NCBI RefSeq assembly: GCF_937770335.1
Contig: NZ_CALJHY010000001.1
Location: forward strand, 186,001 to 250,000
DNA: 64,000 nt
Direction: 5' to 3'
Source of the DNA: an uncultured Glaciecola sp.
Lineage (GTDB): Bacteria > Pseudomonadota > Gammaproteobacteria > Enterobacterales > Alteromonadaceae
Position 1 is the stretch's first letter. Each line of letters opens with the position of its first letter. Positions 51,764 to 61,724 of the stretch are shown one piece after another. A model generated the notes under the pieces. It saw nothing but the letters and a program-made list of their open reading frames with translations, did no database searches and had not been told where the DNA came from. The translations under genes were made by a program, and so were the position numbers.

Positions 51764-54700
51764 TTAACCGTGCAAATTCTCATAAATAACCCGCAATGTA
51801 TTAGAAAATGAACGCTTAGTGTTGGGCCAGGAAATTGATATATTATCGAGCATACCCGACCCACAGTCTACTTCTAGGCGACTGACGACATCAAACAAAG
51901 CATCCGCATTTACTTTTTTACCGGTTTGAACAAGCTTCCTGGCGCCCCTTAAAATCCCACCATTATCATCTTGCATCACTGCATTTTCCGTAGCGGCGAT
52001 AGCGGTCTGAAGCTCAGAAATTAGTTCGTTTAGCGCGGTAGCCAATGAATCCACCTGCCCTTGTTGCTGCAAATAAGGCAGTAAATCAAACCACATACTT
52101 GGGTTTTCAGGCATAGGCATTTTCGCAATGGCGGACTCTGGTGCAGGTTCAGCACCTTCTTGCTGTTTAGATTTCAATTGTTCTTGCGCTTGATGTAGCT
52201 CTTCTTTGTGTGCAGCGACAAGCGCGCTCTCCTGCTCTGCGAGTATTTCCTCATTACTGTGTAACTGCTGCTGAGCTTGCTGCAGGGCCTGCTCTTTATC
52301 ATCTAATTGCGCCTTACTCGATTGCAATTCACTCTCTAATGCAGCTAATTGTTCGGCAAGACCTGACTGATTATTTTGTTGTTCACTTAAACTCTGCTTA
52401 CTTTGGCTATATTCTTGCTGAACAGCTTCTAACTGAGCCAATAACTGACCCTGTTTTTCCTCCATTGCCTCAATACTTTGTTCACGGCCTAGCAACGCAG
52501 CCTGTTGTTCTTCTACTTGCTTCTTAAGTGCGAGCTCTTGCTGCTCTTGTTGTTTAATATGTGCTTCAAGTTCTTCTTGTTGCGCCTTCGCATTATTCAG
52601 TTCATCTTGCAGTTTGTTCTCTGCAGACTGTGTTTCTGTTACTTGCGACTCAGCTTGCTGTAACTCACTTAGATTTCCTTGCAGCTTTTCTTGCAAGCTT
52701 TGGTTTTGTTGCTGTGCATCAATAAGTGCTTGCTGTAATTGCTTTTTCTGTTCTTCAATTTGCTTGTGATGCGCAGTCCATTGTTCTTCGCTGCCCTCAA
52801 GCATTTCACGTTGCTTACTTGCTCTACTTTCCACATCAGATAGTTCAACCGCTAATTGCTCAAGTTTTTGCTCTTGCTCAATGCGTGCCAACTTCTCTGC
52901 ATCAGCTTGTTGCTGAATTTCGTCTAGCTTAGTTTGTGAATCTTGCAACTGCTGACGCTTGGCTTCGACTTCCTGCTTAAGTTGAGCTTGATGTTGTTCC
53001 CACTGTTTACCCGATTGCTCAATTTTGGCTTGCTGTGCAGCACTGCGCTGCTCAAATTCTTTTAACTCGCCTTGAAGCTTATCGAATAATTCTTGCTGGC
53101 GAAGCTTTTCTGCTTTTTCAGCTTCTGTTTGTTGTTTCGAATCGCTCAATATCTGCTCAGTCTCAAGCAGTTTTTGTTGCTTAGCCTTTAACTCTTCTTG
53201 CAATTTCTGTTGCTCGGTCAAACGTAAATCTTCAGCCTCTTTCATCTCTTGTAACTTGCGCTCTGCATGTTGCTCAGCCTCAGCTAATTCAGATTCGACT
53301 CGTTTCATCTCTTCTTGTTGCTTTTGCTTCTCTAGCTTCTCTTGCTCTGCAGTTTGTTTCGCCTCATCAAGTGCCTGCTGAGTTTCTTGCAATACATTTT
53401 GCTTCTCTTCTAACTCGTGCATTAATTTGCTTTGCTGTGCTGCCATATCGCCTTTCTCTTGCTTCGACATCACCTCAAATTTTTGCATCTCGTTTTGTAG
53501 ATGCTCAACGTGGCGAACTTTGTTAGTTAACTCAGATTGTGCAAGTTTATAAGTTTGTTCAATCTCTCGACGCTGCTTCTCGGCTTCTTCACCTGCTTTA
53601 CGCTGATTAATAAGGGCTTCTTTCAATTTTGTACTAGTATTATCACTAGTATGCAATTGCTTTTGAAGATCGGTGATTTGCGAGCCAACTTCATTAATTT
53701 CTGCATCTTTATCGGTGATCGATTGTTTTAACGAATCGATTTGAGTCACGTAAGCTTGCATTTTTTCTTGTTGCTGTTGTTGTTGCGACTGCAATTGCTT
53801 AGAATTCTCTTCACTGACTTCAAGCTGTTGTTGTGCTTCTTTGAAATTTTTCTCGCTTAATTGCAATTCATTTGAAATTTCATTGCGCTGGCTTTGCAAG
53901 TTATCTACTTTCTTAGTTGAAAGCGCTAATTGCTCAGTTAGTGTGTTATTAACATCTTGCGCTTCACTCAACATTTCTCGACTCTGTGAATACTGCTGTT
54001 GCACCTTTTGAAGATTATCAGTTACGCTCTGATGTTGTTCTTGCAGCGTGATATATTCAATTTTAGCTTCGGATATTTCATCTTGGGCTAGCTGAAGCTT
54101 GGTTTCGGTATCACGCAAGTCTTTAAGTTTAGTGGTCAGTTGTTCATGACTTGACCGCAACAATAGCTGCTTTTCAGCCACTTCACGCTCGGCTTCTTTA
54201 TGCGCTGTAATCGCCTCTAATCGGGCTAGGTCCGCTTGAATCATTTCAGTCAAGTCAGTCCACATACACAAGATTGAATCGAACTCTTTACCCTTATAAA
54301 CAGGAATATAAGTGGCATGGCAAGTGCGTAATTTCAAGCCAACTTTGTGTTCCCAATTAATCGATTTCGCTCTACCATCGTATTTGACTTTATTGACAAT
54401 ACGCTCTAATTCATCAGCTTCGCCTTCATCCTTGTTGAGGTCTAGTGAATAAGGTGCGAACCCCCACAAATCATCTTCATTCTCAACACCGAAAAATTCA
54501 CAAGCGGCTGGATTCACACTCGAAAAGCCTTTTTCATCCAGAATTGCCATTGGCATACTACTATGCTCTAGTAGGCCGTGAAATTTATCCTCTTGGAATT
54601 GCTCGCCTGATCGATCTGAAATCCAACAAACGTACTGCTCTTTTTCTTTATCAAATAAATCGATATGCAGCTCACTGGGGTGCATCACTTCATTTTTGCC

Positions 54701-56353
54701 ACGTAAACTGGTATGGAAATCTCGTAATCGACCCGTTTGATGTAACTGTTTAGCCGCTCTAGCTGCAGCATCGGCATCGCCGAACAACTGATAAAAAGTC
54801 CCTTTTTTGAGCTCTTTCTCGTTTAACCCCAAACGCTCCGTCATGGCTGAGTTTGCATGCACAATCCTATCATCTGAATCAACTGTCGCGACGGCAATTG
54901 GCGCAATATCGAGTAAATTAGAAAAGTGCGCTCGCTCTGATTCCAGCTGACGCTGAGTTTCAGTTAGTAAGGTTAAATCTTGGAACATACCAGCAAAACC
55001 AACGCGTTGATTTTTATCATCGCCAAAGGCTTGTATCGTCACCCTCAGATGCAACGCAGTATTCTCATCATTGGCATTTCTCAAATCTTGAGGCGTATCC
55101 GCTGAGAAATGGTCGGCACTGTCTTTTTTACCCACTTTACCAGTAAACTCACGGTTTAGTGCTCTGCCGATTGTGACAGGCGTATCGTCTGGATTATGCA
55201 AAATATTAATGTCTTCAGGTACGAGGTTGAGCAAATCAAAGCGTTTATTTTTGATTTCAGCTAAACGCACGCCAAACATACGTTCAAATGGATTGTTAAC
55301 AGATATAATGCGACATTCATCATCAAGTATATAGACAGGATGCAGCGACACGTTCAACATCGCTTTTGCTTTCTGCTCACTCGCGTATTCTTTTCTTTGA
55401 TTTTGGCGGATCTCGGTTTCATCAATCACCAAGAGTTTGAATGCCGTCGACTTACCTTTGCTATTTTTCGCGATACTAATAGCAACAATACGCACAGGAA
55501 CTTTAAATTCTAATGATTGTAGTACGCTCTTAAAATCAATTTCATGCTGCTCTTTTGCAAGTTCAAAAGATTGTTTCCAAAACGTAATATTGTTAGGGCA
55601 GATTAGCTGATGCAGTTTTTCAAAGTCACCCGAAACATCTTCGCTGTAGCCTAAAATAGTAGATAATATTTGATTTACTTGAAAACTTTCCGACTCAAAA
55701 TCAATAGACATTTGCCCCAGATATAAATGCTCAGTGAGTTGATTTAGTTCCTCTAGATTAATCTTTGCTTCTTTTAGTTGTGTTTCGTAATTATTGACAT
55801 TTTCAAGACAAACAACAAAAGCAACACCATCATATAACGAGTCGTTTTTTGTGATAGTTAGGCGCAATTCTATGTTGCTTGAAAGGGCGGTCACCACCAA
55901 TTTAACGTCTTCATTACCATCCATTGCATTGGTTATTGCTATTTTTGATTCTTCGTTAAAAAAACCAACAAGGGGCTGATTCACCACTCTACTTTTCTCG
56001 CGCCCGAGCAGTTTTGCAGCCGGATTAGTCAATTCAACAACCCTCCCTCGCAAACCTACGAGCACAAGTCCACTATTCATTTTATTCAAAATATCGTCTT
56101 TATTAGCAACCACTTCATCATGTATTTCAATGATTTTATCTTTGGATTTCATGCTAACGAAGGAATAAATGATAAGACAAAGAAGCAGAACCAGAAGCGT
56201 AATTCCCGAATAAGCGATCAAACTCAAGGTAGCTTCGTCTTGGCGTGCTAATTTCTCACCTAATGCAAGGCAGGTAGGACTGATAAGAAGCAAAGCTAAG
56301 AAGACAAAGTGCTTTGTCGAAGAAAAAATTGAGAATAGCAAGTGTCGTGGCAT
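51764..56353 (-). CDS. Giant membrane PAS-domain protein with long coiled coil and degenerate Hpt domain
   Basis: A 1529-residue protein. Two N-terminal hydrophobic segments (about 10-31 and 42-65) are followed by roughly five PAS-like domains (about 87-185, 210-313, 330-460, 473-585 and 587-700; e.g. VELTNPAAKLLGRE, IISVNNPFERMFGV, IVHANSAMTERLGL, FSSVNPAACEFFGV). A very Q/E-rich coiled coil covers about 700-1420. The end (about 1430-1529) resembles a histidine-phosphotransfer domain, but the phospho-histidine position is arginine (GARKLVQTGKKVNADAL, about R1472). No kinase, ATPase, GGDEF, EAL or receiver domain is present. The ATG at 56353 follows GGAAA. It lies 221 bases downstream of pdsS on the same strand. 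Function unknown. Confidence 0.85.
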   Translation of the reverse strand: MPRHLLFSIFSSTKHFVFLALLLISPTCLALGEKLARQDEATLSLIAYSGITLLVLLLCLIIYSFVSMKSKDKIIEIHDEVVANKDDILNKMNSGLVLVGLRGRVVELTNPAAKLLGREKSRVVNQPLVGFFNEESKIAITNAMDGNEDVKLVVTALSSNIELRLTITKNDSLYDGVAFVVCLENVNNYETQLKEAKINLEELNQLTEHLYLGQMSIDFESESFQVNQILSTILGYSEDVSGDFEKLHQLICPNNITFWKQSFELAKEQHEIDFKSVLQSLEFKVPVRIVAISIAKNSKGKSTAFKLLVIDETEIRQNQRKEYASEQKAKAMLNVSLHPVYILDDECRIISVNNPFERMFGVRLAEIKNKRFDLLNLVPEDINILHNPDDTPVTIGRALNREFTGKVGKKDSADHFSADTPQDLRNANDENTALHLRVTIQAFGDDKNQRVGFAGMFQDLTLLTETQRQLESERAHFSNLLDIAPIAVATVDSDDRIVHANSAMTERLGLNEKELKKGTFYQLFGDADAAARAAKQLHQTGRLRDFHTSLRGKNEVMHPSELHIDLFDKEKEQYVCWISDRSGEQFQEDKFHGLLEHSSMPMAILDEKGFSSVNPAACEFFGVENEDDLWGFAPYSLDLNKDEGEADELERIVNKVKYDGRAKSINWEHKVGLKLRTCHATYIPVYKGKEFDSILCMWTDLTEMIQADLARLEAITAHKEAEREVAEKQLLLRSSHEQLTTKLKDLRDTETKLQLAQDEISEAKIEYITLQEQHQSVTDNLQKVQQQYSQSREMLSEAQDVNNTLTEQLALSTKKVDNLQSQRNEISNELQLSEKNFKEAQQQLEVSEENSKQLQSQQQQQQEKMQAYVTQIDSLKQSITDKDAEINEVGSQITDLQKQLHTSDNTSTKLKEALINQRKAGEEAEKQRREIEQTYKLAQSELTNKVRHVEHLQNEMQKFEVMSKQEKGDMAAQQSKLMHELEEKQNVLQETQQALDEAKQTAEQEKLEKQKQQEEMKRVESELAEAEQHAERKLQEMKEAEDLRLTEQQKLQEELKAKQQKLLETEQILSDSKQQTEAEKAEKLRQQELFDKLQGELKEFEQRSAAQQAKIEQSGKQWEQHQAQLKQEVEAKRQQLQDSQTKLDEIQQQADAEKLARIEQEQKLEQLAVELSDVESRASKQREMLEGSEEQWTAHHKQIEEQKKQLQQALIDAQQQNQSLQEKLQGNLSELQQAESQVTETQSAENKLQDELNNAKAQQEELEAHIKQQEQQELALKKQVEEQQAALLGREQSIEAMEEKQGQLLAQLEAVQQEYSQSKQSLSEQQNNQSGLAEQLAALESELQSSKAQLDDKEQALQQAQQQLHSNEEILAEQESALVAAHKEELHQAQEQLKSKQQEGAEPAPESAIAKMPMPENPSMWFDLLPYLQQQGQVDSLATALNELISELQTAIAATENAVMQDDNGGILRGARKLVQTGKKVNADALFDVVSRLEVDCGSGMLDNISISWPNTKRSFSNTLRVIYENLHG

Positions 56354-56574
56354 CTTAAATGTTTCCAAAGAAAATAAGTTAATATCCTAGGAGACAACTT
56401 ACATCGTGAGCATCAACTTAAAAACAGTCGATCGGCATCTAGTGTATATTTATAAATAACTAATAAGCCGTATCTGTCGCACCAAATGTCACAAATTCAT
56501 TAAGTAAGAGTGACTTAATGATTCCTGCGCCAGCGTCATGATAGTTGTTTCGTCATGACTCTGTATCGGCAGAC

Positions 56575-58734
56575 TTAACTAAATTTAAAACTTATTGTTA
56601 CTACAACACCCGATCCATCTATTTGATTGTCGATATTAATCTCGGCATGATGAAAAAGTGCAATCATTTTAGCTATATACAAACCTAAACCCAGATGTGG
56701 CTGTTCGGAACTTTGCTCTTTTCTAATTGAAATCATTGAGTCTAAAAGCTCTTTTTGCATATTTTCTGGTAAAGTTGGCCCCTGATTACTGATGTGAATT
56801 TCAAACCCATCAGACTTGCCTTTAAGAGCAAACTTAATAGCTGAATCAACCGGGCTAAATTCAACAGCGTTTGCAACAATTTTGTCTAGCATTTGAGCAA
56901 AAAGCTCAGGGGAACCCGGTATCACCTGTTTTTGTAACTCGACCTCGAGTAAAAACTGTCTTGAAGGATAGGCTAGCCGATAACCTTCTGAACAGCCAGT
57001 CAGCACTTCCTCTAAGCTAAATTGTTCAATATCACTGCGCTGAATAGCTTGCTCTAGACGGGTTGCTTCACTCATGTTGGTCAGTATTTTACTTAGTCTT
57101 TTAATTCCCTCTCTTGCCCTATCTATATAGGCTTGATTATCAGATGAGTGCGGCTCAAGCGACAGGTTATCCAGTGATGAGCTAACAATTGCGACAGGCG
57201 TTCTGAGTTCATGCGACAAACGCGACGCCATATTTTCCAAATAGCTGTTGTACTGGTCTAATTTAGATAACACGTTATTGAAGGTTCGACTCAAGTCGCC
57301 AATTTCATCATTGGTAGGCGACGCTTTAATTTCGCCCACTATTTTACCTGAACTATCGATGGCACTTTCTGCTTCATTTCTTAGTTTACGAATTCGCCAT
57401 GAAATTCGAGATGCTAATAAAAATAAGGAGAGCGTTCCTAAGACAATAACCGCTAAAATAAAGTGAAACTGCTGCTCTAAGGCCTGGTTTCGTAAGGTTC
57501 TTATACCATTAGTTGTCTGTTCAACGACCACAGCTCCCATCACCTGCTCATCAATATATATCGGATGTGCAGCAGACAAAATGACCGCTTTTTTATCCGC
57601 ACTCAAACGCCACAAACTGCTCGGTGTGCCATCTAAAGCCTCTTCAACATCCTTACCTTCAAGTGCATATGCATTGTCTAGATCGTCAATAAAATCAGCG
57701 GGGGGCTTGATGAGGAAGGTATAATAAATAGGCAGTAACCATTGGTTTTCAATATACTGCCACCAACTTTCTGTATTTCTTTTTTTAGCGCTCGGTGCTT
57801 TTACTCCGCTTGAGCTTTGTATCTCACCGGACTTAGCCAGTACTCGCATATGTTTATCAATTACCCAGACTCGTGCATTCGAATATTTTAATCCTTTTAA
57901 TATATTTTCAATATCAGGTGACGGTATTAGTACCGTACCCAAGGACTCTTTTTTTGCAGGGTCGGAAGTGCCCAACGTGTATTTTGCAAAACCAGTTTGC
58001 GGGTCATCTATGTCAGTTATAGCAAAAGCGATTTTATTCGACATCATATCAACCGGTAGACGTAACTCTATGTTATAGCCAGTTAATGTTTGTTGCCAAT
58101 AGCCTTGAATTTTAGTTTCTAGGCGATCTGGTTGAATACGTTGAGTACCCGACTTAAGTAAATAAGCGTTAACCCATCCGGACTGCATGGGCGCAATAAC
58201 ATAACGCTTGAAATCACCTTTATTGTCTATCATCGCAACCTGTAGATAATCGTTACGGTCAATTCGCAGACTATTGCGTGCGCGGAAAACTAAGTTGTCA
58301 TCCGAGACTTCAAATACCGCATATAGAAATGACTCATAACGACCAATCATATGTTTAAAAGTCAAACTTTGTGGCAGATATGTTTGCTGAATTTCAAGTA
58401 GATTTTGTTCAGCGTAGTTAAGTTTAAAAGCTTGATATTCGTCCCAGTCAGAGGTGTCACCGTCGAGCTGAATAGGGAAATCGATACTATGTGCATACAA
58501 GTCTGTACCAGGCCTTACATCACTCATAAAAGAAGACTGCAGATCGAATAGCTTAGGCCTCTCATGCAGCGCAGTTGCAACCGCACGAGCAGTTCCTACC
58601 ATCGTTTGCTCTTGACCAATGCGCAGGTAAGTTTCTAATTCCCAAACATATTGGTATCCCAAATACGGAATTGTAAATAAGAATGATGAGAAGAAGAGAA
58701 GCTGAATTCGTAAACCAATGCGCCACTTTTTCAT
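56575..58734 (-). CDS. pdsS: Sensor histidine kinase of the proteobacterial dedicated sortase (Pds) family
   Basis: A 719-residue membrane kinase. The N-terminal helix (about 10-30) and second helix (about 422-442) enclose a large periplasmic sensor region (IQLDGDTSDWDEY is a beta-rich CBM9-like element). Then come HAMP (about 443-495), the HisKA box with H508 (SRLSHELRTPVAI), and an ATPase domain with N-box VANAVEFSP and G2 box HLGLGLYIAK. The G1 box reads ISNQGP, with asparagine where kinases have aspartate. Length and layout match the PdsS family. The gene overlaps pdsR by four bases. The usual sortase genes are missing from this locus. Confidence 0.82.
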   Translation of the reverse strand: MKKWRIGLRIQLLFFSSFLFTIPYLGYQYVWELETYLRIGQEQTMVGTARAVATALHERPKLFDLQSSFMSDVRPGTDLYAHSIDFPIQLDGDTSDWDEYQAFKLNYAEQNLLEIQQTYLPQSLTFKHMIGRYESFLYAVFEVSDDNLVFRARNSLRIDRNDYLQVAMIDNKGDFKRYVIAPMQSGWVNAYLLKSGTQRIQPDRLETKIQGYWQQTLTGYNIELRLPVDMMSNKIAFAITDIDDPQTGFAKYTLGTSDPAKKESLGTVLIPSPDIENILKGLKYSNARVWVIDKHMRVLAKSGEIQSSSGVKAPSAKKRNTESWWQYIENQWLLPIYYTFLIKPPADFIDDLDNAYALEGKDVEEALDGTPSSLWRLSADKKAVILSAAHPIYIDEQVMGAVVVEQTTNGIRTLRNQALEQQFHFILAVIVLGTLSLFLLASRISWRIRKLRNEAESAIDSSGKIVGEIKASPTNDEIGDLSRTFNNVLSKLDQYNSYLENMASRLSHELRTPVAIVSSSLDNLSLEPHSSDNQAYIDRAREGIKRLSKILTNMSEATRLEQAIQRSDIEQFSLEEVLTGCSEGYRLAYPSRQFLLEVELQKQVIPGSPELFAQMLDKIVANAVEFSPVDSAIKFALKGKSDGFEIHISNQGPTLPENMQKELLDSMISIRKEQSSEQPHLGLGLYIAKMIALFHHAEINIDNQIDGSGVVVTISFKFS

Positions 58735-59429
58735 GAAGCGTCATCTTTCCAGCGATAACCCATGCCATAAACTGTTTCAATACGGTCAAAAGAAAGGTCA
58801 ACTTGCACGAACTTTTTTCTTATTCGTTTAATGTGCGAGGTAATGGTGGTGTCATCAACAACCATGTTCGATTCATCCATTAACTGTTGTCTACTTTTCA
58901 CATGCCCGACATATTTTGCAATCGCATGTAGCATCCAAAACTCAGTGACGGTTAGATCAATAAATTGCTGGTTCCATTTTACCGTCATGCGTTTAGCGTC
59001 CATGACTAAATTACCTGACTGAATAAGATCTGATGCCACTTGGGGTTCATTTAATAATTCATTACGTCTAAACAGCGCGGCAATACGAGCTAACAAATGA
59101 GGCAAACTGATATCCTTTGTTAGATAATCATCCGCTCCCATTCTTAAACCACATATCGTGTCGTAATCATTGTCGCGCGCTGTCAAAAAGATAATAGGTA
59201 AGGTTTTAGAAAGGCTACGTAAGGTTTGACAGACAGCAAAACCGCCGTCAATTTCATCGGCTAAACCTATATCCACAATTGCTAAGTCAGGGAGTCTTTT
59301 TGTAAAGGCAATTTCCGCTTCCTGTCTATTTGAATACGCTTTTACTGCATAGCCTTGCTTAGTTAAAGCAGACACATAGTTGTCTCTAAGCGCTTCGTCA
59401 TCTTCAACTAAAGCAATTTGCTTCGACAT
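58731..59429 (-). CDS. pdsR: Response regulator of the proteobacterial dedicated sortase (Pds) family, OmpR-type
   Basis: A 232-residue two-domain regulator. The receiver has acidic pocket E9-D10-D11, phospho-acceptor D53 (LAIVDIGL) and the later threonine (FLTARD) and lysine (YLTKD). The C-terminal OmpR/PhoB winged helix runs about 130-230 (WKDDAS at the end). It is the partner of PdsS by overlap and by family. AAAGGTG precedes the start. It is divergent from pdsO. Confidence 0.85.
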   Translation of the reverse strand: MSKQIALVEDDEALRDNYVSALTKQGYAVKAYSNRQEAEIAFTKRLPDLAIVDIGLADEIDGGFAVCQTLRSLSKTLPIIFLTARDNDYDTICGLRMGADDYLTKDISLPHLLARIAALFRRNELLNEPQVASDLIQSGNLVMDAKRMTVKWNQQFIDLTVTEFWMLHAIAKYVGHVKSRQQLMDESNMVVDDTTITSHIKRIRKKFVQVDLSFDRIETVYGMGYRWKDDAS

Positions 59430-59512
59430 AACACACCTTTAATTTGCACAGTTAAGCATAACTATATAGAAAATCACGATGGGTGAAAGCCTTTGCTAGC
59501 AATTTCCATTTT

Positions 59513-59563
59513 TTCGCCACAATTGACCTCCACATTGCCACTTTCCCCCCCTTAAGTTGCCAC
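59513..59563. promoter_or_regulatory. Three phased TTGCCAC-type repeats between pdsR and pdsO
   Basis: TCGCCAC at 59514-59520, TTGCCAC at 59535-59541 and TTGCCAC at 59557-59563 are spaced 21 and 22 bases start to start, two helical turns each. They occupy the divergent promoter region, about 75-120 bases before pdsO. This is the typical layout of OmpR-type operators, so PdsR is the natural candidate ligand (inference). Confidence 0.5.
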
Positions 59564-59636
59564 CAAGTTTTTGTTTAATGACATGGCGATTCAAAACTGC
59601 TTTTAAAAACAAACGTAAACATATTTGGAGAAATAC

Positions 59637-60491
59637 ATGAAATCAACAGTTAACAAAACCAACGCAAATAGATTGAATAAAATCACCTTAGCGATCGCTT
59701 TTTCCAGTTTAGTGAGTGTCTCTGCATTTTCAGTTGCAAAGCCATCCTCAAACGACCACGTAACTGATCTGACAACAAGTACACAGGAACTTAAAAATAC
59801 GGCACTTAAAAATACCGATCTTAAAAATAATGAAGCTCAAAATAACGCGATGGGATTGGGCTCCGGAATTATAGTTGGTGCGGTCGTTGCAGGCCCGATT
59901 GGTGCCGCCATAGCAGGCCTATTTGGCTTATTTATTGCCGATGATATAAATGATGGGAATCGTTTAGCGCTAACTAAAGAAGAGTTAAATAATACGAATC
60001 AAGAACTGATCGTATTGCAGCAGAGTTATCAGGATTCGATAGCCTCAGCAAATCAAAAAATTGCAACTATGGACAGTGCAATGACTCAAGTAATTCAAGG
60101 TGTCATGCCGACGCTTGAAGCGAACATTCAATTTAAAACCGCCTCATTTCTAGTTGAAGACCATTACAAGTCACAACTTGATGGCCTAGCAAGTGAATTA
60201 CGCAAAAACCCTAAGTTAAAAATTGAACTGTCTGGTTTTGCCGATCAACGCGGCGAGTCGACCTATAACCAAGTGCTTTCGCAACAGCGTGCTAAGTCCG
60301 TAAAAGACTACTTAGTGAGTCAATTCGCGAATGAAAATCAGGTGCTAACGCAATCATTTGGCGAATCTGAACTAGTGAGTGAAAGTGATAACTTTGAAGA
60401 TAACTTTTTCGACCGTCGAGTGCTGTTAAAAGTAATTAATAAATCAGCAGACATGACTGCTGCAAGTGGCTCCCTACCCTATAGTCACTGA
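59637..60491 (+). CDS. pdsO: Sortase-system OmpA family protein PdsO
   Basis: A 284-residue exported protein. The signal peptide is about 1-35. A short LKNT/LKNN repeat linker (about 46-65) comes next, then a glycine-rich hydrophobic stretch GLGSGIIVGAVVAGPIGAAIAGLFGLFIADD (about 73-103), a coiled segment, and an OmpA-like peptidoglycan-binding domain (about 165-270; LSGFADQRGESTYNQVLSQQRAKSV). This order is that of PdsO proteins of marine sortase loci. Start is the ATG at 59637 with TTGGAG six bases upstream; a TTG four codons earlier overlaps that site. No sortase or sortase target gene is adjacent. Confidence 0.82.
   Translation: MKSTVNKTNANRLNKITLAIAFSSLVSVSAFSVAKPSSNDHVTDLTTSTQELKNTALKNTDLKNNEAQNNAMGLGSGIIVGAVVAGPIGAAIAGLFGLFIADDINDGNRLALTKEELNNTNQELIVLQQSYQDSIASANQKIATMDSAMTQVIQGVMPTLEANIQFKTASFLVEDHYKSQLDGLASELRKNPKLKIELSGFADQRGESTYNQVLSQQRAKSVKDYLVSQFANENQVLTQSFGESELVSESDNFEDNFFDRRVLLKVINKSADMTAASGSLPYSH
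59790..59834 (+). repeat. 15-base repeats within pdsO
   Basis: CTTAAAAATA recurs at 59790, 59805 and 59820 with a 15-base period. It encodes the LKNTA-LKNTD-LKNNE linker of PdsO. The unit could vary in number by slippage. Confidence 0.85.
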
Positions 60492-60585
60492 TAAAAATGC
60501 TAATTATTTTGTGACTTCTATTCATAAGCTGTCGTCAATATAATAAATTGCCAATAATGGCAGTCATTTTAATGGAGATATTTTA

Positions 60586-60735
60586 ATGAAAAAGTCAATT
60601 ATTGGTATCAGCATTGCGTTAGTTTTACTAGGAGGATGCCCATTAAATCCTGCGGTAAGTGAAGCTGAAGTTTTTAAGCAATGCCCGAGTGCGCTTGAGG
60701 CTAAAAGTGTGAAGGCTTGTGCAATTGCGTTTTAG
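60586..60735 (+). CDS. Small lipoprotein downstream of pdsO
   Basis: A 49-residue open frame. MKKSIIGISIALVLLGGC forms a lipoprotein signal with lipobox LGGC (C18), followed by a 31-residue mature part with two further cysteines (C33 and C45) that could form a disulfide. GGAG lies nine bases before the ATG. It begins 94 bases after pdsO on the same strand and may share its transcript. No homologue recognised. Confidence 0.7.
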   Translation: MKKSIIGISIALVLLGGCPLNPAVSEAEVFKQCPSALEAKSVKACAIAF

Positions 60736-60910
60736 CGTTTTTATAGAATGGTTAGCAAAACTCAAAAATACATTGATAAACGATTAGGAACTAAGCTTAC
60801 CTATAATAAATAGACGATAGTTTTATCCGAAAAGTCACACTTTTTACGTAAATTAGGTAGGTTTTAGTGAAGTTGCCGTCTAGCAGCCTGTTTTTTGAAA
60901 ACTAAGATAA

Positions 60911-60940
60911 AGTGAAAAGCAAGCTTACTTGCTTTTCACT
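60911..60940. terminator. Strong stem-loop between the small lipoprotein gene and dsbC
   Basis: Thirteen-pair stem AGTGAAAAGCAAG/CTTGCTTTTCACT with a four-base loop. It lies 5 bases beyond the dsbC stop on the minus strand. The T-run is short, so its efficiency is uncertain. Confidence 0.7.
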
Positions 60941-60944
60941 TATA

Positions 60945-61724
60945 TTACGCTTTGTGCGCTGCTTTAAGGGCTAGCAATAAAGACTGTGCAGGCTGATAAC
61001 CTGGGACAACTGTACCGTCAGGCATAATGATATTAGGCGTTCCGTTTACGCCAATCGCCTTGCCAAAGTTATATTGGTCAGCAACTTGATTCTCGCATGA
61101 CGTGCTAGCAATATTTCCACCAGCTTTGGCTTTAGTCATCGCTTCCTGCGGATTTTCAGAACACCAAATGGAAACAGCATCACGGTAAACTTGACTATTA
61201 ATGCCTTGCCTCGGGAAAGCAAGATAGCGAACCGTAATCCCTAAATCATTAAGGATATCCATCTCATTATGAAGCTTGCGGCAGTATCCACAAGTTGCAT
61301 CGGTAAATACATTAATGACGTATTTTTCTTTTTTTGATTTAAATTCAATTGCAGAATCTTTGAATCTCTCGATGCCTTGCAAACGGTACTTTTGTAATGC
61401 TGCACCAGTTTCATCGACAATCTCATCGCCAACGCGATAGATTCGAGCACTTAGAAAATATTCACCATTTTCACTACCATAAAAAATACCCGTATTTGTA
61501 TTAATCTGTAACAAACCAGGTACATTTGAATCCGCCACTGATATTATTTGAAAGTTTAGCTTTTGCTCAAACTTTAAAATCAAATCAGCATACTTTTCGG
61601 AAGCGCCCTCTTGTGTCGCAATCTCTTGCACAGCATTAACCCTTGCCGAAAACACTAAAGCAGAAAACATAGCTGATATAACAACAAGCTTCGATGCTAT
61701 TATTAACCTATTGATATAATTCAT
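60945..61724 (-). CDS. dsbC: Thiol:disulfide interchange protein DsbC
   Basis: A 259-residue periplasmic disulfide isomerase. Signal peptide about 1-31, N-terminal dimerisation domain (about 40-100), then a thioredoxin-fold domain with the CGYC active site (C145, C148; FTDATCGYCRKLH). The cis-proline loop is GVNGTPNIIMPDG. Start ATG at 61724 follows GGGG; an ATG seven codons upstream is less well placed. It follows xerD, as in E. coli, though recJ is elsewhere in this window. Confidence 0.94.
   Translation of the reverse strand: MNYINRLIIASKLVVISAMFSALVFSARVNAVQEIATQEGASEKYADLILKFEQKLNFQIISVADSNVPGLLQINTNTGIFYGSENGEYFLSARIYRVGDEIVDETGAALQKYRLQGIERFKDSAIEFKSKKEKYVINVFTDATCGYCRKLHNEMDILNDLGITVRYLAFPRQGINSQVYRDAVSIWCSENPQEAMTKAKAGGNIASTSCENQVADQYNFGKAIGVNGTPNIIMPDGTVVPGYQPAQSLLLALKAAHKA

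Follow-up and report, generated by a model that had tools for sequence, protein, structure and literature searches.

A sortase-less Pds locus in Glaciecola points to PdsRS as a likely cell-wall damage two-component system resembling CreBC/BlrAB

The Pds system is described by five NCBIfam models, which cover a class GN sortase (TIGR03784), the sensor kinase PdsS (TIGR03785), the response regulator PdsR (TIGR03787), a VIT/VWA target protein (TIGR03788) and the OmpA-type protein PdsO (TIGR03789). In the available part of PMC10581121, the Gram-negative sortase is given no known role. The CreBC/BlrAB two-component systems have creD and beta-lactamase genes as known outputs (PMC4689548, PMC3660660, PMC2654508), and their cre/blr tag is TTCAC-N6-TTCAC (PMC4689548, PMC3660660). 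Homologues of CreBC/BlrAB are noted as absent from Shewanella oneidensis in the accessible portion of one study, which invokes an 'unknown TCS' to link damage to PBP1a with the beta-lactamase gene blaA (Yin et al. 2018, PMC5786531).

The Pds locus analysed here lies in a 64,000-nucleotide stretch of DNA (the window) from the genome of an uncultured Glaciecola sp. (G000). It shares the divergent gene order of the described Pds system but has neither sortase nor target. Its features are listed below by position in the window.

51764-56368, PAS/coiled-coil protein, 1534 amino acids, adjoining pdsS
56575-58734, minus strand, PdsS, sensor histidine kinase, 719 amino acids (TIGR03785, 957.3 bits, cut-off 612.2)
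58731-59429, minus strand, PdsR, OmpR-family response regulator, 232 amino acids (TIGR03787, 399.1 bits, cut-off 335.7)
59461-59466, minus strand, likely -10 element of pdsR (ACTATA on the plus strand, TATAGT on the minus strand), kept in seven aligned members of the genus
59501-59548, plus strand, predicted PdsR box, 48 bp (TTTCCA at 59503, TCGCCA at 59514, TTGCCA at 59535; a further TTGCCA at 59557)
59574-59579, plus strand, likely -10 element of pdsO (TTTAAT), kept in seven aligned members of the genus
59637-60491, plus strand, PdsO, glycine-rich segment and OmpA domain (TIGR03789, 208.7 bits, cut-off 152.2; PF00691 OmpA, 62 bits)
60492-60944, no strand, empty site at the relatives' place for target and sortase, neither of which is in the window
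60547-60564, terminator-like hairpin, after pdsO and ahead of the lipoprotein frame
60586-60735, plus strand, lipoprotein frame, 49 amino acids, 95 bp beyond pdsO and in its orientation

The identities of PdsR, PdsS and PdsO proposed in a preliminary description of this DNA hold, with all three proteins above their NCBIfam cut-offs, and pdsO and pdsRS point away from each other, the PdsR start codon and the PdsO ATG being separated by 207 bases. The same description regarded these 207 bases as intergenic DNA only; the length is correct, but the gap carries a deeply conserved element, the predicted box. It also took the gap to be the place where a sortase and target would be found, a position that had to be revised because relatives have both genes downstream of pdsO, before dsbC.

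That the window holds no sortase or target was borne out, and the whole genome (3.85 Mb in 18 contigs, completeness 100, contamination 0.07) gave the same result. Profile searches of it returned no match at E<=0.001 to TIGR03784 or to TIGR03788, and none to the sortase model PF04203 even at E<=1, so that the suggestion of a sortase encoded elsewhere in the genome was not upheld. Rerouting of the target to another sorting signal, an idea taken from PMC3237569, is ruled out by the lack of any TIGR03788 match.

In the canonical order of the relatives, djlA-xerD-dsbC comes first, followed by the sortase and target genes, which point away from pdsO, and then by pdsO itself, with pdsRS in divergent orientation to it. 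The flanks of the window are those of its relatives, and nothing of the sortase-target pair remains between pdsO and dsbC; in blastn of positions 60301-61100 against the relatives' loci, matches were confined to the end of pdsO, to dsbC and to a stretch of the lipoprotein frame that G003 also has. Among 12 same-genus relatives, all carry PdsS and 10 carry sortase and target above cut-off, the pair being broken in G008 and absent in G011. The sortase and target genes have, on this comparison of sequences, evidently been lost secondarily from the window's genome. Because G009, the sister of G008 in the PdsS tree, retains its sortase, the losses in G000 and G008 may have been separate. In G009 the target gene starts ~30 bp after pdsO, which suggests that target and sortase probably share the pdsO promoter; their deletion would then leave pdsO as the sole gene under that promoter. 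The sortase-target site of G011 (L079:10037-14105) instead encodes a response-regulator protein with GGDEF/EAL domains, a BLUF protein and a further protein that matches no Pfam family.

Separation of the regulators from the sortase is common across the family. In a sample of 246 genomes (presence cut-offs of E<=1e-5 for TIGR03784 and E<=1e-60 for TIGR03785), PdsS was found in 158 and sortase in 112, a count that includes the broken sortase of G008 and partial matches in G110, G134 and G265. The distribution is nested: every one of the 112 sortase-positive genomes has PdsS, and 46 of the 158 PdsS genomes, spread over 22 of the 43 PdsS-bearing genera, are missing the sortase. In 12 genera no sampled PdsS genome has one. 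PdsO, counted by hand at E<=1e-37, is present in 39 of the 46 sortase-less PdsS genomes and in 110 of the 112 sortase-bearing ones. On a tree of 75 PdsS genes (G036, G038, G041 and G046 left out), there are at least 11 changes of sortase state, six of them forced by well-supported branches. Because 46 of 158 PdsS genomes do without a sortase, the Pds system is not dedicated to it.

All three proteins stay under strongly purifying selection in the absence of the sortase. Excluding pairs with saturated or tiny dS, median omega in sortase-less pairs was 0.073 for PdsS (12 pairs), 0.043 for PdsR (13) and 0.081 for PdsO (12), as compared with 0.052 (11 pairs), 0.031 (17) and 0.110 (15), respectively, in sortase-bearing pairs. 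The slightly raised omega of PdsS without the sortase (0.073 versus 0.052, p 0.029, from pairs that are not independent) counts slightly against reading PdsRS as a cell-wall alarm.

These observations bear on three other accounts of the locus. That sortase and target exist in this genome and were missed, through an assembly gap or divergence, is highly improbable: 18 contigs do imply gaps, but completeness is 100, neither TIGR03784, TIGR03788 nor PF04203 finds a match, and the sequence runs unbroken across the syntenic site, which is empty. We likewise consider it very unlikely that PdsRSO is the leftover of a dedicated sortase system, decaying without function. The loss of sortase and target here, their decay in G008 and the somewhat higher omega of PdsS would fit such a relic; against it stand the full-length frames in the sortase-less genomes that we opened, their median omega of 0.04–0.08, the intact box in the window, and the many PdsS genomes without sortase, including whole genera in the sample. 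Hardly credible is the idea that in this lineage PdsRS has come to serve a neighbour, either the PAS/coiled-coil protein or the small lipoprotein, the two new partners that the preliminary description had put forward. Both are adjacent to the locus, and the lipoprotein frame follows pdsO closely on the same strand. However, this frame corresponds to the 5′ portion of a lipoprotein gene that is longer in G003, where it encodes at least 280 amino acids from its ATG and is sited elsewhere (L071:2-925, minus strand, ~4 kb past the G003 sortase); the shortened copy stands behind the terminator-like hairpin and has no box of its own. The PAS/coiled-coil protein lies beside pdsS in 5 of 12 same-genus loci, with or without a sortase (G003, G008, G009, G010 and G012), and all of these except G008 are sortase-bearing. 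What survives of the proposed re-use is that PdsRSO works without the sortase; the evidence that follows favours a general cell-wall regulon over re-use peculiar to this lineage.

The conserved element between pdsR and pdsO occurs in 64 of 78 regions upstream of pdsR at a score above 12, and its matrix was built solely from such regions. Scanning the window with this matrix gave a single match above 0, at 59501, with 65.2 bits (the best of 10 shuffled windows scored -8.8). In the whole genome the pds box was the sole match at E<=0.005 (E 1.1e-12); the next matches, with best E values of 0.0076 and 0.059, lay inside frames on inspection and were taken as noise. The box also occurs at target genes that are unlinked to pdsRS. 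Of 15 such genes, hand-picked from a larger number and none used in building the matrix, 13 are preceded by a box (scores 25.6–52.1, 160–400 bp ahead of the aligned part of the target), the exceptions being those of G023 and G035. Where pdsO and pdsR have come to lie apart (G066, G127, G155, G022 and G222), box matches are found at both genes. At E<=0.005 the box profile matched in 140 of 158 PdsS genomes and in 2 of 88 genomes without PdsS; of the 18 PdsS genomes without a box, 8 belong to g24 and 7 to g76. Profile R1, which was only built, comprises 55 of 59 distinct boxes at score >=28 and leaves out four from g11, and profile R2 combines 30 pds boxes with 13 target boxes, at which its matches arise by construction. 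The Photobacterium loci L153, L161, L162, L166 and L169 have pdsRS, pdsO and the box, with no sortase within the fetched flanks; the Alteromonas loci L117, L122, L124, L125 and L132 keep pdsRS, with no pdsO and no box nearby.

PdsR would be the protein that binds this box. It could instead be owned by another regulator with the same DNA preference, of which PdsRS is merely one target, and some considerations favour such an owner: binding by PdsR is a prediction, sites of OmpR-family regulators look alike, and the box tracks the locus partly through linkage. Yet so few PdsS-less genomes have a match, the position of the box is autoregulatory, and most sampled Alteromonas-like (g24) genomes are without the box, several of them also without pdsO. 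We therefore regard a different owner as unlikely and treat the box as a predicted PdsR site.

The genes behind further boxes indicate what else PdsR might control. Among 60 Shewanella genomes (the genus of G040), 57 had a box match at E<=0.001, with 98 matches in all. Opening 55 of these together with the pds site of G040 gave 15 pdsR/pdsO sites and 40 non-pds sites; 42 of the 43 best matches (E<=1.1e-8, one per genome) were left unopened, on the assumption that they represent the pdsR-pdsO box. Of the 40 non-pds boxes, 38 precede creD or genes for class B or D beta-lactamases: creD is the gene behind 18 of them, a class D beta-lactamase gene behind 15 (in L311 a short frame) and a metallo-beta-lactamase (class B-like) gene behind 5, with the neighbours assigned by Pfam/NCBIfam on samples (CreD 2 of 18, class D 4 of 15, Lactamase_B 5 of 5) and the remainder by BLAST. 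Only L334 and L348 have no such neighbour. The box-profile search of the window's own genome found neither creD nor a beta-lactamase gene with a box.

Outside Shewanella, another 24 box matches at E<=0.001 belong to neither pds nor target genes, and 12 of them precede cell-wall genes; the genomes covered include a set of 38 mostly picked for having several box matches. The beta-lactamase genes behind these boxes are of class C (G179), class A (G032 and G075) and a class D-like type (G033), with a beta-lactamase-family hydrolase in G060. A gene for D-Ala-D-Ala ligase (Ddl) follows the box in G064 and G107, a hydrolase and PBP2 pair follows it in all four genomes of g13, and a DacA-like gene does so in G161, where the box is on the other strand. 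Genes for alpha-2-macroglobulin lipoproteins stand behind boxes in G045, G064 and G107, and a weak case is mraZ in G013, with the box ~330 bp ahead. Eight of the 24 have no link to the cell wall (in G013, G018, G047, G068, G072, G075, G145 and G151). The box of L290, in G072, is a strong one (E 1.4e-7) and lies ahead of a gene for a SIMPL-domain protein of unknown role.

This predicted regulon resembles that of CreBC/BlrAB, with creD and beta-lactamase genes among its predicted outputs in relatives, and the sites themselves are alike in being tandem 5-mers with 6 bases between them, giving an 11-bp period. CreB and CreC are also the next-best NCBIfam models for PdsR and PdsS. The scores, however, fall far below the cut-offs (169.2 versus 273 for CreB and 143.6 versus 356 for CreC), and the half-site is TTGCC rather than the TTCAC of the cre/blr tag. 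PdsRS differs further in the CBM9-like domain of its sensor and in having pdsO and the target-sortase pair as additional outputs. In trees with proteins of E. coli K-12 (10 regulators, 8 kinases), CreC joins PdsS at 87/83, under a long-branch warning, and the CreB fork stays open. Because the predicted outputs and the period are alike while the cut-offs for CreB and CreC lie out of reach and the trees are indecisive, we propose that PdsRS works like CreBC/BlrAB and do not claim membership in that family.

Together, these results make it likely that PdsRS is a two-component system for cell-wall (peptidoglycan) damage, similar to CreBC/BlrAB, with pdsO as a core output and the sortase-target pair as an optional one. 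The sortase is probably only one optional output of a general cell-wall damage alarm. PdsS would detect the damage on the periplasmic side, possibly by means of its CBM9-like glycan-binding fold, and phosphorylated PdsR would bind the TTGCC-N6-TTGCC-type box. Bound PdsR would then turn on a regulon for envelope repair and beta-lactam defence whose members vary by species, with pdsO included nearly always, target and sortase often, and creD, beta-lactamase, PBP, Ddl or alpha-2-macroglobulin genes in some species. We infer the inducing signal, activation rather than repression, and the role of PdsO, which, being of the OmpA type, would fasten the outer membrane more firmly to the wall. Target and sortase have been deleted from the pdsO operon of the window's genome, whose only strong predicted outputs are now pdsO and pdsRS.

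The boxes before the class D genes of Shewanella make PdsRS a direct candidate, on sequence grounds, for the 'unknown TCS' of blaA. On balance we favour the wider view that PdsRS is both this system and the missing CreBC-like system of Alteromonadales-type marine bacteria, that the class GN sortase acts with its one target as an effector of the damage response, not as a surface system in its own right, and that both can disappear from a genome that retains the alarm. In the open-access papers searched, we found no account of a PdsRS regulon or of its link to blaA induction. If the regulator does answer peptidoglycan damage, envelope repair becomes a testable role for the sortase and its VIT/VWA target, and S. 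oneidensis gains a named candidate two-component system for the induction of blaA. On the same reading, the label 'dedicated sortase system' misdirects the annotation of sortase-less genomes.

The predicted fold of the PdsS sensor is compatible with a signal from peptidoglycan damage. Because a fold search with full-length PdsS gave only kinase and photoreceptor chains, we modelled the periplasmic part (residues 58-420) alone, which yielded a mean pLDDT of 78.6. The model shows a CBM9-like beta-sandwich with a Cache-like domain behind it, with matches to the CBM9 chains 1i82 (E 4.4e-8) and 7nwn and a weaker match to the WalK sensor 4ywz (E 4.7e-3). With these two domains, the sensor could plausibly respond to glycan ends from damaged peptidoglycan. 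The Cache-like part, which scores below its Pfam cut-off (19.3 versus 27), is where PdsS resembles WalK, one of the envelope-stress and cell-wall sensors; PdsRS differs from WalK in its regulon and in the CBM9-like domain that PdsS carries in front.
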